A stretch of 41,975 nt of DNA from a virus. The stretch spans positions 1 through 41,975 of IMG/VR virus record IMGVR_UViG_3300019761_000009, one strand, 5' to 3'. The position numbers and the translations under genes are program-made. Below the pieces are notes generated by a model. The model ran no database searches. It saw nothing but the letters and a program-made list of their open reading frames with translations, and was not told the origin of the DNA. Of the stretch, positions 2,036-41,975 are shown piece by piece. The stretch's first letter is position 1. The number at the start of each line of letters is the position of its first letter.

Positions 2036-2080
2036 ATGAAAGTGTAAAAACAAATTAAAATAAAAGATATTTGGTTCTAC

Positions 2081-2189
2081 AAAGTGTATGGCTTCCGTTA
2101 ATAGCGGAGAAAGGAACAACTCCTTGGAAATTATAAAATTGAATTTAGAAGTCCCTGATTACTCATACAAACAATTGTTCATACACTTT
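2081..2189 (+). ncRNA. Structured RNA module A of a tandem pair
   Basis: The module is closed by a perfect 10-bp stem, AAAGTGTATG (2081-2090) with CATACACTTT (2180-2189). Inside are a short hairpin TCCG-7 nt-CGGA (2094-2108) and an inner stem AACAA (2115-2119) with TTGTT (2175-2179), which stacks on the closing stem. A 21-base block at 2152-2172 (starts TCCCTGATTA, ends CAAAC) is repeated with 19 of 21 identities in module B at 2369-2389. This matches no riboswitch or ribozyme consensus I know. Confidence 0.6.
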
Positions 2190-2309
2190 TTAGAGTCAAA
2201 TAAGACTCGACAGTTAAGCTACTGAAAAAAAGGCTAATCTAAACTATTGGCATGGTTCAGAATTATTATCTTCAAGATAAAATAGTAGTATACGGAGTGC
2301 ATCATCACT

Positions 2310-2419
2310 CTGTATATGTAAGCATATTGAAAATAAACAATAGGAATTCCTTTGCAGTTTAAAATTACTCCCTGATTATTCATAGAAACCATTTGCAAAA
2401 AATATGCTTACTTATACAG
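2310..2419 (+). ncRNA. Structured RNA module B of a tandem pair
   Basis: The closing stem is 19 positions long with 18 pairs (2310-2328 with 2401-2419; one T-T mismatch at 2317/2412). An inner stem TTTGCA (2351-2356) pairs with TGCAAA (2394-2399). The loop holds the conserved block 2369-2389 (TCCCTGATTA ... GAAAC) seen in module A. The closing stems of A and B differ in sequence but occupy the same place, which supports selection for structure. The stem ends just upstream of the AAAGGAA ribosome site of the gene at 2440. Confidence 0.65.
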
Positions 2420-2439
2420 ATTAATATAAAGGAAATAAA

Positions 2440-2807: not shown

Positions 2808-3233
2808 ATGGAAAACCAAAAAGAAATGGGAAACTGTTATTTATCGGCATTTGAATTAATGATGTTAAATAAAAATCTTACTCTTGTTCATGGTATAGTT
2901 CATTTTGATGGTGGAATAATGGAGGGTGTTCCTATGATTCATGCTTGGTGTGAACTCAATGATGCCATAGTTTTAGATTATTCAAATAATAGAGAAATCA
3001 TAGTTTCAAAAGATTTTTATTATAAAAGAGGAATAATATCTGAAACTGTAAAATATAATCATGATGAAATGATGGAACAATTATATTTACACACAAATGA
3101 AGATGGTCAATCTATGCTTGGTTTTTGGGATAAGAGATTTTTGGAAACAGATAGGAAGTCACTTGAAATAGCAAGAGAAAGAGGAGTGAATTATGTTGAT
3201 ATTGAAGAACATGAAAGAAATAGGGTTTCATAA
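2808..3233 (+). CDS. Papain/NlpC-like fold hypothetical protein (141 aa)
   Basis: Residues 8-18 contain GNCYLSAFELM. Further on come GVPMIHAWCEL and VLDYSNN. An early Cys starting a helix, then His in a strand, then Asp is the order of a papain-like or transglutaminase-like triad, and the NCY...HAW...D pattern recurs in phage proteins of this type. Whether it is an active hydrolase is inferred. It has no signal peptide, so it acts in the cytoplasm rather than as an exported lysin. AAGGA is 7 bases upstream, and its stop overlaps the next start (TAATG). Confidence 0.65.
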   Translation: MENQKEMGNCYLSAFELMMLNKNLTLVHGIVHFDGGIMEGVPMIHAWCELNDAIVLDYSNNREIIVSKDFYYKRGIISETVKYNHDEMMEQLYLHTNEDGQSMLGFWDKRFLETDRKSLEIARERGVNYVDIEEHERNRVS

Positions 3234-3670
3234 TGAATAACTTACCATGTGAAGTATGTACAAAAACAGATAACCATTGTTGTCTAGCTGATATACCTTA
3301 TGACTATATAGAAGCATTAAAATTATGTGACTTAGGTAGACAAAATGGATTAGATTTAATTATGGTTTCACATCCAAAGTTTGAAGATAAAGTAATAATA
3401 CTTAACTCAGGTGATGATGGAATTTTAGAAAATAAACCTTGTGTATTTTTGAAGAATGGTAAATGTTCTATATATGAAGACAGACCTTTTATATGTAGGA
3501 ATTATGGAACTGATTTTATTAGATGTAGATACGAAGCTTGTGGCATTAGTGATGAACAAACTATAAGAAATATGACAAAAAATGATATTAAAATGTTAGA
3601 TAAAAAAGCAGGTGAATTAAGCGATATAGTAAATATTCAAAACCAAATAAAGGTATTTAGGAGTAGTTAG
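3233..3670 (+). CDS. YkgJ-type zinc/iron-chelating domain protein (145 aa)
   Basis: The family signature is clear: an N-terminal C-x2-C ... CC, then PCVFLKNGKCSIYEDRPFIC with a following R-N-Y-G. This is the CxFL-x-nGxCxIYexRPxxCR pattern of YkgJ/CxxCxxCC putative zinc- or iron-chelating proteins. In bacteria some act near flagellin modification and some are of unknown function. In a phage early operon the role is unknown. The start overlaps the preceding stop, and the next gene follows 1 base after the stop. Confidence 0.85.
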   Translation: MNNLPCEVCTKTDNHCCLADIPYDYIEALKLCDLGRQNGLDLIMVSHPKFEDKVIILNSGDDGILENKPCVFLKNGKCSIYEDRPFICRNYGTDFIRCRYEACGISDEQTIRNMTKNDIKMLDKKAGELSDIVNIQNQIKVFRSS

Positions 3671-5847: not shown

Positions 5848-7109
5848 TGGAAAACGCAACAAATGTAGAGAATAGTATATCGCTAACAGTATTAAATGGT
5901 AAAGTTAAAGTATGTAATATAGTTACTTATGAAATTGGAGAAGCAGAAGTTGTAAGTGATTTCTTTAAATCAGTTGATTCAGCAAGTAGTCAAAAATATA
6001 CTACAGTATTAGTTAATGATGGTGCAGTAGATTCTATTAATATGTCTGATTGGATTCAAGGTAACGATTCAACAACACCTTCTTTAAATGCTTATCCTGA
6101 TGAATTGCATCAAGTTATTTCTAAAGGTTTAGAAACTACAAAAGGTTTAGTTGATAAAAAAGGTATTAGTTTAAAAACTTATAATTCATCAATGGATTTT
6201 AAAGCCAGTATTGAATTGCTTGAACGAGCAGAGCTAGATTTTGAAACACAAATCAAGAAGTTAAAAGCTAGTTCAGGTGGTGCTAATTTAAGTGATATGT
6301 TAGATAGATACTTCTTTAGAAAACATTTACTTATTAGAGGTGGTAAAGGTGTAGGTAAAACATATGCTGTTGATGAAAGATTAGCTTCAGAGAAAATTGA
6401 TAATGAGTTTATTGCAGGACATGAAGGAATGGAATCTATTGACTTACTTGGTTACTATATTAAAGATGAAACTGGTGCTATGGTATGGTTAGATGGTGCA
6501 TTATCTAAAGCATTCAGAAAAGCTAAAGATGCAGAGTGTTGTTTATTCTTTGATGAGATTCTTCGTATGCCATCACGAGAATTAAATATCTTAGTTGGTG
6601 CATTAACTCCTACATCAAGAGGTACATATAGATTAAGAACAAATAGAGTTATTGATATTGCACATGGTATTGGGGAAACTGAAGTATTAGAAGTTCCAGT
6701 TAAAAATTTATGGTGTGTGGCTACTACAAATATTGGTGCTGGTTATCAAGTAGATGATATTGATGATGCTTTAAGTGATAGATTTAGAATTGTTGATAAA
6801 ACAGTATCTACTGAAGAGTTACAAATTATTTTGACTTCATATGCAACAATAAGTGGTGTTAGTGAAGCTATGGTAAACAAATTAATTGATTTCTATACAC
6901 AATCTAATGATTTGGTTACAAGTGGTGAACTAGAAAAAGAAGTTAATCTTAGACATTTATCTGAGGTAATTCAATTCAGTAAAAGTGATGTAGATATTAA
7001 AGAATATATGTTTGATTTAGTTCCAACATGGTGTTCTACAGATGCAAATGGTACAGTTAATAAATCAGAAAGAGAAATTATTAACAAATTAATTAAAAAG
7101 ATTATCTAA
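5847..7109 (+). CDS. MoxR/CobS-type AAA+ ATPase (420 aa)
   Basis: The Walker A is GGKGVGKT (165-172), Walker B LFFDE (233-237), sensor 1 ATTN (292-295), and DRF follows at 311-313. This is the MoxR/CobS clade, whose members partner with VWA proteins to remodel protein complexes or insert metals. The N-terminal 140 residues are not recognised and include a helical, acidic stretch. The VWA partner is encoded at 7226, with one tiny Zn-ribbon gene between them. A cobaltochelatase role is unlikely without a chelatase large subunit, so a chaperone-like role on phage or host complexes is more likely. Confidence 0.9.
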   Translation: MENATNVENSISLTVLNGKVKVCNIVTYEIGEAEVVSDFFKSVDSASSQKYTTVLVNDGAVDSINMSDWIQGNDSTTPSLNAYPDELHQVISKGLETTKGLVDKKGISLKTYNSSMDFKASIELLERAELDFETQIKKLKASSGGANLSDMLDRYFFRKHLLIRGGKGVGKTYAVDERLASEKIDNEFIAGHEGMESIDLLGYYIKDETGAMVWLDGALSKAFRKAKDAECCLFFDEILRMPSRELNILVGALTPTSRGTYRLRTNRVIDIAHGIGETEVLEVPVKNLWCVATTNIGAGYQVDDIDDALSDRFRIVDKTVSTEELQIILTSYATISGVSEAMVNKLIDFYTQSNDLVTSGELEKEVNLRHLSEVIQFSKSDVDIKEYMFDLVPTWCSTDANGTVNKSEREIINKLIKKII

Positions 7110-38616: not shown

Positions 38617-38710
38617 TATATCAGATACTCTTATACCTTTATATCTATTATATATACAATAGAAGTATAACATAGATATATTTATTTATGTATAAATCTC
38701 TAAAAATTTG

Positions 38711-38737
38711 TTTCCTTCTAAAAAGGAAGTGTATAAT
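38711..38737 (+). promoter_or_regulatory. Hairpin followed by -10 box, copy 1
   Basis: TTCCTT (38712-38717) pairs with AAGGAA (38723-38728), with a T-G pair extending it and a 5-base loop. TATAAT follows at 38732-38737. The same arrangement recurs at 39560-39589. A palindromic operator next to the -10 box is one reading. Confidence 0.5.
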
Positions 38738-38748
38738 TTTATGTAAAT

Positions 38749-38796
38749 ATTAACTTAAATTAAACTTAATTAACTTAAAAATAGGTCAGATATTAT
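38749..38796 (+). promoter_or_regulatory. 10-bp phased repeats and -10 (TATTAT)
   Basis: ATTAACTTAA (38749-38758), ATTAAACTTA (38759-38768) and ATTAACTTAA (38769-38778) follow each other exactly every 10 bases, then TATTAT at 38791-38796. Such periodic A/T tracts replace the -35 box in Campylobacter-type promoters. They might also be iterons. Confidence 0.5.
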
Positions 38797-39046
38797 GAAT
38801 ACACTATATTGATAGTTAGGAACTTGTTTCTCCCCCCATCACTTATATAGAATTGTTCTAATTTGTTGAATATAATTTGTGGTTTATATGTGTAATTATT
38901 ATCTTAGTTATATTTTGCGTACTATATTGAGTGATATGTGCTGAATTATGCTCTTAATTAGTGTTTAAATGCACTACAGAGTGTTTTCGTTTACCTAGCG
39001 TATACTTTTCTTATCTAAACTAGTTACGCTTAAATTACTACACATA

Positions 39047-39052
39047 TATAAT
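39047..39052 (+). promoter_or_regulatory. -10 box (TATAAT) for the micro Zn-ribbon gene
   Basis: Perfect TATAAT inside an ATATATAATATA run, 24 bases before the ATG at 39076, with AAAAGGAG between. The upstream sequence is T-rich, without a -35 box. Confidence 0.5.
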
Positions 39053-39075
39053 ATACAACTAAAAGGAGTTAAATT

Positions 39076-39180
39076 ATGAAATGTAAGTTATGTGGTGGTG
39101 TTATGATAGAGAAGAGAATGTTATGGTATGGAAATATATCTGTAAGATGGAGATGTGTTGAATGTAATTTTACAGCATAA
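39076..39180 (+). CDS. Micro zinc-ribbon protein (34 aa)
   Basis: AAAAGGAG lies 7 bases before the ATG and a TATAAT lies 24 bases before it. The product has C-x2-C (MKCKLCGG) and C-x2-C (RCVECNF), a complete zinc ribbon in 34 residues, with strands between. Such minimal ribbons can bind RNA polymerase or nucleic acid. It is the only gene in the 1.1-kb control region and probably one of the first transcribed. Confidence 0.7.
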   Translation: MKCKLCGGVMIEKRMLWYGNISVRWRCVECNFTA

Positions 39181-39218
39181 TAACTATAAGCTATATGAAT
39201 CACACCTTTTAATATCAA

Positions 39219-39311
39219 TTAGATACATTACCAACTAAAGTTGGGATAGCGGTGGAGTTATCTATCATGTCAATTCAATATAGAAATCCACCTTGAGTTT
39301 ATATTATCTAA
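39219..39311 (+). ncRNA. Three-stem structured element
   Basis: Closing stem TTAGATA (39219-39225) with TATCTAA (39305-39311) encloses hairpin CCAAC-TAAA-GTTGG (39231-39244) and stem GGTGGA (39251-39256) with TCCACC (39287-39292). The inner loop begins GTT and ends ATAGAAA just inside the stem, as does module B at 2357-2388. A shared RNA family is possible but alignment is loose. Confidence 0.45.
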
Positions 39312-39338
39312 AATTAATATATATACAAAAGAAATACT

Positions 39339-39405
39339 AAGATAATCTATGCAGTATACAAAAAAGAAAACTTCGTCATGTGTAATCATAGCATAGAGTT
39401 ATCTT
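39339..39405 (+). ncRNA. Long two-part stem-loop
   Basis: AAGATAA (39339-39345) pairs with TTATCTT (39399-39405), and CTATGC (39347-39352) with GCATAG (39391-39396), separated by a 1/2-base internal loop. The 38-base loop is A-rich then mixed. Thirteen pairs in AT-rich DNA make chance unlikely. Could be an RNA structure or an origin-type palindrome. Confidence 0.45.
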
Positions 39406-39451
39406 ATTAATTTATTATGTAGATATATTAACTTCTTCACGATAATATAAA

Positions 39452-39473
39452 TAATCTTTTCTAACGAAGATTA
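39452..39473 (+). other. Hairpin TAATCTT/AAGATTA
   Basis: Perfect 7-bp stem (39452-39458 with 39467-39473) and 8-base loop TTCTAACG. Not followed by T-tract, so not an obvious terminator. Confidence 0.4.
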
Positions 39474-39483
39474 ATCAAAAGTT

Positions 39484-39504
39484 CTTCTCTTTCGCCAAGA
39501 GAAG
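39484..39504 (+). other. Hairpin CTTCTCTT/AAGAGAAG
   Basis: Perfect 8-bp stem (39484-39491 with 39497-39504) and 5-base loop TCGCC, followed by an A-run rather than T-run on the + strand. On the - strand the following bases are AACTTTTG, a poor terminator tail. Lies 22 bases upstream of the AGGAGG of the leader ORF. Confidence 0.45.
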
Positions 39505-39537
39505 CAGAAGCAAAAAAAAATAATTAGGAGGTTTTAA

Positions 39538-39573
39538 ATGAGATATATATATTATTTTGTTTCCTTTTTATAA
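39538..39573 (+). CDS. Possible leader peptide (11 aa)
   Basis: AGGAGG, the best Shine-Dalgarno in the early region, is 6 bases before this ATG, yet the frame (MRYIYYFVSFL) ends after 11 codons. Codons 7-11 overlap the hairpin at 39560-39578. The pairing of strong start and short aromatic-rich frame resembles leader peptides that control downstream transcription. It could also be a chance start or a decayed gene. Confidence 0.4.
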   Translation: MRYIYYFVSFL

Positions 39574-39589
39574 GGAAATGAATTATAAT
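39560..39589 (+). promoter_or_regulatory. Hairpin followed by -10 box, copy 2
   Basis: TTTCCTT (39560-39566) pairs perfectly with AAGGAAA (39572-39578) around TTTAT, then TATAAT at 39584-39589. Matches copy 1 at 38711-38737 in stem sequence, loop length and order. Confidence 0.5.
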
Positions 39590-39591
39590 AT

Positions 39592-39645
39592 ATTACTTTT
39601 AATTACTTGTAATTACTTTACATTACTTTGTAGTTATGCTATAAT
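39592..39645 (+). promoter_or_regulatory. Early promoter with four 10-bp repeats and extended -10
   Basis: ATTACTTTTA, ATTACTTGTA, ATTACTTTAC and ATTACTTTGT sit head to tail at 39592-39631, exactly 10 bases each. A perfect extended -10, TGCTATAAT, follows (39637-39645). The leader to the 39717 ATG is about 65 bases. T-rich 10-bp periodicity without a -35 box is the known form of Campylobacter sigma70 promoters. Confidence 0.75.
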
Positions 39646-39716
39646 ATACTTACAAAAAAAGAGAAGAGTTACTAACAATTAGTTAGGAATCAAAACAAAA
39701 CATAAAAGGAAAAATT

Positions 39717-41670: not shown

Positions 41671-41975
41671 GTAAATCAATAGAGTTTACACTACCACAAG
41701 TAGAAGCGTATAAGAATGGCGGGAGTATGTTTATAGTTCCTATAGCAGAAGATTTGCAACAGGTATTAGTGAAAGCAATAGAAAGACAGCAAGAAGAGTA
41801 TTTTATAAGTACATTTGCACCAATCAAAAAAGGCGATAAAGATATTTTTATTAAAGAGGAATTTACTGTCGCTCCATTCACTACAGATATTTTATACAAA
41901 TCGGATGGACACCCAAATAGTAATTTGATAGATTGGGAAGACGCTTCAAAAATGACAAAAGAACAATCAAGATAT
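41667..41975 (+). CDS. ASCH/PUA-like protein, 5' part (continues at 1)
   Basis: GTG start with GGAG 7 bases upstream and GTGA overlap with the preceding gene. The 103 codons here run in frame to the window end and continue at position 1, where the terminal repeat duplicates codons 63-103. See the entry at 1-324 for domain evidence. Joined length 169 residues. Confidence 0.72.
   Translation, partial: MSKSIEFTLPQVEAYKNGGSMFIVPIAEDLQQVLVKAIERQQEEYFISTFAPIKKGDKDIFIKEEFTVAPFTTDILYKSDGHPNSNLIDWEDASKMTKEQSRY
41853..41975. repeat. Terminal direct repeat, right copy
   Basis: Identical over 123 bases to 1-123. See the left copy. The unique genome length is then 41,852 bp. Confidence 0.95.

Follow-up and report, generated by a model that had tools for sequence, protein, structure and literature searches.

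Closest described systems

The early mRNA of phage T7 carries RNase III processing sites that lie between genes of an operon, have stems of a length similar to those described here and possess neither large loops nor a loop block conserved in sequence. The DNA analysed in the present work is the IMG/VR virus record IMGVR_UViG_3300019761_000009, positions 1 to 41,975, and this whole stretch of 41,975 nucleotides is referred to as the window. A gene-free gap of 404 bp on the coding strand of the rightward early operon of this phage was found to hold two modules, A and B, each formed by a closing stem of ~20 bp around a large loop, and both loops carry a copy of the same 25-nt block. The locus is an orphan structured-RNA candidate known from one genome, to which the function of a cis element is most likely to be assigned.

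Comparison with tandem riboswitches and aptamers (PMC9481103) revealed that the locus resembles them in having two modules built alike in the gap ahead of a gene, loops with conserved bases, variable stems, a second module adjoining the ribosome site and a possible alternative pairing. Where tandem riboswitches have a compact junction as their conserved part, the locus has a single 25-nt stretch within a large loop that is unstructured. Further, no Rfam class, ligand-related gene or relatives were found and no masking of the Shine-Dalgarno (SD) sequence is predicted. As to the features that characterise tandem riboswitches, only the block is clearly common to the two modules beyond chance, the searches found no homologue in which a conserved aptamer core with covariation could be seen, and, as to an expression platform, an alternative pairing is predicted in module B, no terminator was found and the SD core is open in both predicted states.

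The put antitermination RNA of phage HK022 is a ~70-nt RNA of two stem-loops located downstream of an early promoter, and its two related copies act in cis without a dedicated trans-acting protein factor (PMC9378689). The likeness to put is loose and consists in a phage RNA present in two related copies, while our modules measure 120-135 nt, do not have the put architecture but one long stem around a loop of 72-87 nt, and lie in the middle of an operon, with no clear promoter found and both copies within one gap. The likeness to the T7-type sites is a ~20-bp duplex in an intergenic gap of a polycistronic phage mRNA, and the difference lies in the large loops and the conserved loop block of the modules. 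In its presumed working the locus is closest to a tandem leader, or loosely to the put RNA, and it matches neither in the features that define it.

For uncultured phages, structured RNAs are poorly catalogued. Large surveys, PMC8040213 among them, work from homologous regions in which covariation must be significant, so that single-lineage cases are outside their reach; tools that depend on many relatives miss such cases too. The present locus, in which a stem encloses each of two copies of a single sequence, is a clear single-genome case. Should it bind a factor, it would count as a new phage RNA regulator; as an origin, it would help to explain how replication starts in a phage with N4-like genes and no family-A polymerase.

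Two modules in a gene-free gap

The features of the locus, all on the + strand, are as follows.

2036..2439, +, gene-free gap between the small open reading frame (ORF) 1838-2035 and gene 2440, from the ORF list and codon usage
2068..2091, +, module A closing stem, 5' arm, inverted repeat
2112..2126, +, possible small hairpin AAGGA-ACAAC-TCCTT in module A, from the sequence and the minimum free energy (MFE) fold, weak
2152..2176, +, conserved block in the module A loop, TCCCTGATTACTCATACAAACAATT, 22/25 identity to 2369-2393
2179..2202, +, module A closing stem, 3' arm, inverted repeat
2288..2317, +, 12-bp hairpin 2288-2299/2306-2317, directly 5' of the inner stem of module B, from constrained and unconstrained folds
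2309..2328, +, module B closing stem, 5' arm, inverted repeat, inner part 2318-2328 predicted stable (pairs with p 0.81-1.0)
2369..2393, +, conserved block in the module B loop, TCCCTGATTATTCATAGAAACCATT, 22/25 identity to 2152-2176
2401..2420, +, module B closing stem, 3' arm, inverted repeat, ending about 8 nt 5' of the SD sequence
2428..2434, +, SD sequence AAAGGAA of gene 2440, able to pair weakly with UUCCUUU 2347-2353 in the B loop
2440..2805, +, downstream gene for a Cys-rich protein of 121 amino acids, function unassigned, homologues of which come after the DNA polymerase in relatives

A first-pass annotation made from the sequence had described a gene-free locus of 404 bp. Codon usage bore this out: the upstream ORF of 65 codons stops at 2035, and the possible small ORFs in the gap gave non-coding scores of -0.13 to -0.37 versus +0.21 for genes. 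The inverted repeats and the 19/21 identity of the block likewise upheld its description of two modules sharing one plan of closing stem, loop and common block, and both are oriented in the same direction along the operon. Module A extends over 2068-2202 with a loop of 87 nt and module B over about 2305-2425 with a loop of 72 nt. The ten perfect pairs first reported for module A are real and form the inner portion (2081-2090/2180-2189) of a longer stem with a single mismatch. In module B, for which 18 of 19 pairs had been given, 19/20 positions are paired with a single T-T mismatch, and the outer 8 pairs compete with the hairpin 2288-2317. This module had been placed about 10 bases before the ribosome site of gene 2440; the 3' arm of its stem ends about 8 nt before the SD sequence.

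Alignment of the two loops revealed that the block copies form a direct repeat 217 apart, 22/25 identical over 25 nt (TCCCTGATTAYTCATASAAACMATT) and 19/21 over the shorter block, and that the block lies toward the 3' end of the loop in both modules. The module B block is predicted to form a mini-hairpin, UGA-UUAU-UCA (p about 0.9), and the possible AAGGA-ACAAC-TCCTT hairpin of module A has a weak counterpart in module B at about 2342-2352.

Folding of module B, constrained and unconstrained, indicated that the hairpin 2288-2317 and the outer 8 pairs of the closing stem use the same bases and are mutually exclusive. Because the fold containing the upstream hairpin and the inner 11 pairs is predicted to be 2.7 kcal/mol better than the full stem (-31.1 vs -28.4 kcal/mol), module B is likely to be bistable, with an inner stem that stays stable in the model. 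As to strand, module A contains two G-U pairs on the + strand, which would be A-C mismatches on the other strand, and the hairpin 2288-2317 adds one further G-U pair on the + strand.

Stems and repeat compared with chance expectation

The whole window was scanned for ungapped stems with a loop of up to 150 nt and a score of at least 33, and in 42 kb only the stems of modules A and B reached this score. Their scores were 42.5 and 39, versus 30 for the best comparable stem at ~3,940 random positions. The MFE z scores were -3.7 for module A and -3.2 for module B (200 dinucleotide shuffles), and both modules ranked in the top three of 1,196 folded segments (25 shuffles per segment). Taken alone, the 25-nt repeat was unremarkable genome-wide, with a self-BLAST E of 0.42 and about 13 pairs ranked higher; compared loop against loop, it was better than all of 2,000 shuffles. 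The real evidence is that both features, stem and repeat, coincide at both places.

The inner stem that had been proposed for each module found no statistical support, the loop interiors by themselves (z +0.30 and +0.65) being no more stable than shuffles. The arms of A and B have no detectable common sequence, as 1225 and 1503 of 2,000 shuffles equalled them, and the nine two-sided changes counted between A and B therefore hinge on an alignment for which the structure served as the anchor. These changes are suggestive and no proof of common descent of the stems. The earlier argument that stems which differ in sequence and keep their place point to conserved RNA structure is thus weaker than first given, there being only two copies, the arms of which share no detectable sequence.

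Search for relatives

None of the families of Rfam 15 matched the window at the gathering threshold, so that the Rfam scan proposed as a check in the first-pass annotation yielded nothing and its view that the locus matches no known riboswitch or ribozyme was sustained. A permissive scan gave chance-level matches only (best E 0.73). The Parabacteroides-1 RNA (RF03088) could be aligned weakly over its full length to module B with 14.3 bits, against a gathering score of 93.4 bits, and the E of 1.4-5.3 is at chance level. ARAGORN found no tRNA or tmRNA. The gap was also compared by BLASTN with 50,697 phage records and with 72,556 plasmid records, which gave either no match or short AT-rich chance matches.

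Pattern scans with the block required exact matches at 16-21 positions, which a diverged relative may escape. In IMG/VR the 21-mer had 0 matches, while the 18-mer matched 24 loci, mostly inside ORFs, and the 16-mer 45 loci, none of them with an A- or B-like stem. The 21-mer matched 3 times in 84,980 prokaryote genomes, which is about chance expectation; the best of these, L134, lies inside an oxidoreductase gene and the other two (L133 and L135) are without a stem. A covariance model, R1, built from modules A and B as the first-pass annotation had suggested, gave nothing convincing in ~90 relatives and eight whole relative contigs. The homologous structures in related phages on which that annotation had staked its proposal were thus found in neither the pattern nor the covariance searches, as far as these reached.

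The nearest phages by exonuclease were L003 (60% identity), L008 (53%) and L009 (50%), and by the 2440 protein L002 (56%), L160 (51%) and L161 (47%). In L002, L160 and L161 the 2440 homologue begins within the 3' end of the DNA polymerase gene and there is no gap. The block or a similar stem was present in none of the relatives examined. In the genome studied here, Pfam DNA_pol_A had no match (it was detected in 10/14 controls), and a search with the polymerase of a relative gave no match and no detectable polymerase remnant.

Two observations on the relatives are recorded here. In L165, a contig of L008, the strongest stem is a hairpin of 29 bp at 5971-6039 (TCCTTTGATTATTATCTTAAAGCCAACAC / GTGTTGGCTTTAAGATAATAACAAAAGGG), which has a short loop of 11 nt and is of a different kind from the modules. 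The polymerase genes of L002 (2700-2850) and L161 (240-380) seem, from their sequence, to be split by a stretch that resembles a group I intron and contains an HNH-like ORF. A group I intron remnant was among the candidates tried for the locus, and it was rejected, the window having no Rfam intron match.

A proposed cis-acting element and its alternatives

We tentatively interpret the locus as a tandem RNA element that would be transcribed within the rightward early operon and act in cis, a reading that we prefer with somewhat less than even confidence. In a transcript crossing the gap, each ~20-bp stem would close a large, mostly unpaired loop displaying the same 25-nt recognition sequence. 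A trans factor, either a phage or host protein or, less likely, a small ligand, could bind the displayed sequence in both copies, and the bound factor may control how well the mRNA is translated, how stable it is or whether RNase III cleaves it at the 2440 junction. Module B could take either of two forms, the full closing stem or the upstream hairpin with the inner stem, and factor binding could shift it between them.

This interpretation is favoured by the coincidence of the two strongest stems of the genome with both copies of the repeat in a gap without coding signal, by module B adjoining the ribosome site, by the common orientation of the modules, by the + strand G-U pairs and by the predicted bistability of module B. 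Several results weigh against it. No relative of the modules was found, so there is no phylogenetic covariation. The minus strand folded about equally well (-33.9 and -33.0 kcal/mol), and a role at the DNA level therefore has to be considered. No clear promoter or terminator was found at the locus. The duplex between the SD sequence and UUCCUUU (-7.8 kcal/mol) was matched by 52/1,000 shuffled loops and is borderline, and the SD core is predicted to be open in both folds of module B; for these two reasons a simple SD-masking switch is unsupported.

Among the functions listed in the first-pass annotation, a tandem regulatory leader is compatible with these results, and for a small RNA decoy or a scaffold RNA no positive evidence was obtained. 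That gene 2440 has gained a new leader at its start is plausible because, unlike in the three relatives, the polymerase is gone here and a structured gap stands in its place. It is improbable, if worth stating, that the locus belongs to a new class of its own, a tandem RNA with a sensing or regulatory role confined to this phage lineage. Such an RNA would sense a phage or host factor through two receptor modules that share a 25-nt core, and its second module would be coupled to a bistable stem before the start of 2440.

The alternative that fared best, though we regard it as unlikely, is that the modules are RNase III processing sites, where the ~20-bp duplexes would be cut, the upstream and downstream messages separated and ~90-nt fragments released, the block possibly acting as a small RNA in trans. 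The predicted transcript does contain duplexes of about 20 bp, both long stems of the genome are at this locus, and their length and intergenic place in one operon fit the T7 early mRNA; a conserved loop sequence, however, is not needed for processing. Antisense pairing to translation starts was tried separately as a candidate and rejected, as blocks and loops paired with the 51 phage starts no better than shuffled loops did, a result that also weighs against the RNase III alternative with its possible small RNA.

Rather less probable is an element acting at the DNA level, the stems of which would be extruded or would form on single-stranded DNA; it might serve, for example, in recombination or as a site where the N4-like primase primes or initiates. 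The two strands fold equally well, the like orientation of the two copies would suit an origin, and the phage has a primase, an annealing protein, a single-stranded DNA-binding protein and a RusA-like resolvase; since no family-A DNA polymerase was found, the phage may need to recruit replication enzymes from its host. The G-U pairs, on the other hand, favour + strand RNA (at just three positions), the GC skew is unchanged at the locus and the module arms are not iterons. Integron-type sites, moreover, conserve the stem ends rather than the loop.

The structures could also be without present function, a decaying duplication or a deletion scar after loss of the DNA polymerase gene, which we consider improbable. 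Such an origin agrees with the relatives, which carry the polymerase gene directly before the 2440 homologue, with the lack of conservation outside this genome and with the unstructured loop interiors, but long paired arms of different sequence around near-identical blocks are unexpected in decaying DNA and no remnant of the polymerase was detectable. A coding remnant, in which the modules would be two copies of a small gene and the block would read PDYS in one frame, is very improbable: an open 45-codon frame runs in module A from ATG 2089 through the block, and both substitutions within the 21 bases fall at third codon positions of it, but the copy of this frame in module B is broken by TAG stops, TAG is a normal stop in this phage (7/51 genes end in it, by which an alternative code with TAG as sense was ruled out), the codon usage scores fall in the non-coding range, and no ribosome site of the type seen at other genes precedes ATG 2089.

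Genome and neighbouring genes

Positions 1-123 and 41853-41975 of the window are identical. Joining these 123-base ends also brings back an unbroken reading frame. The genome, of 41,852 bp, is therefore complete and forms a circle (or is permuted or has terminal repeats). Matches to PHROG indicated T7-like portal (head-tail adaptor), scaffold, capsid, tail and terminase genes. The exonuclease, primase and single-stranded DNA-annealing protein resemble those of N4-type phages (Schitoviridae), and genes for the single-stranded DNA-binding protein and the RusA-like resolvase lie beside them. The search for a T7-type RNA polymerase gave no match, but it is uninformative since the control search gave none either. 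No convincing defence-system neighbours were found. Predicted structures of the ORF 1165-1851 product and of the 2440 protein had a predicted local distance difference test (pLDDT) of 39 and 43, too poor for use.

Within the small ORF 1838-2035, which encodes an acidic protein of 65 amino acids, the coding sequence 1856-1995 just 5' of module A folds strongly on the + strand only (z -4.4, vs 0.0 on the minus strand). A 1.1-kb non-coding region (38617-39716) separates divergent gene blocks and contains at least two TTTCCTT-N-AAGGAA palindromes right before TATAAT-like sequences, which gives it the look of an early promoter region with operator sites. In the product of the gene at 3233-3670, the CxxCxxCC domain PF03692 of Pfam, which chelates zinc or iron, scored over the cut-off, and a homologue with 45% identity is present in L008.
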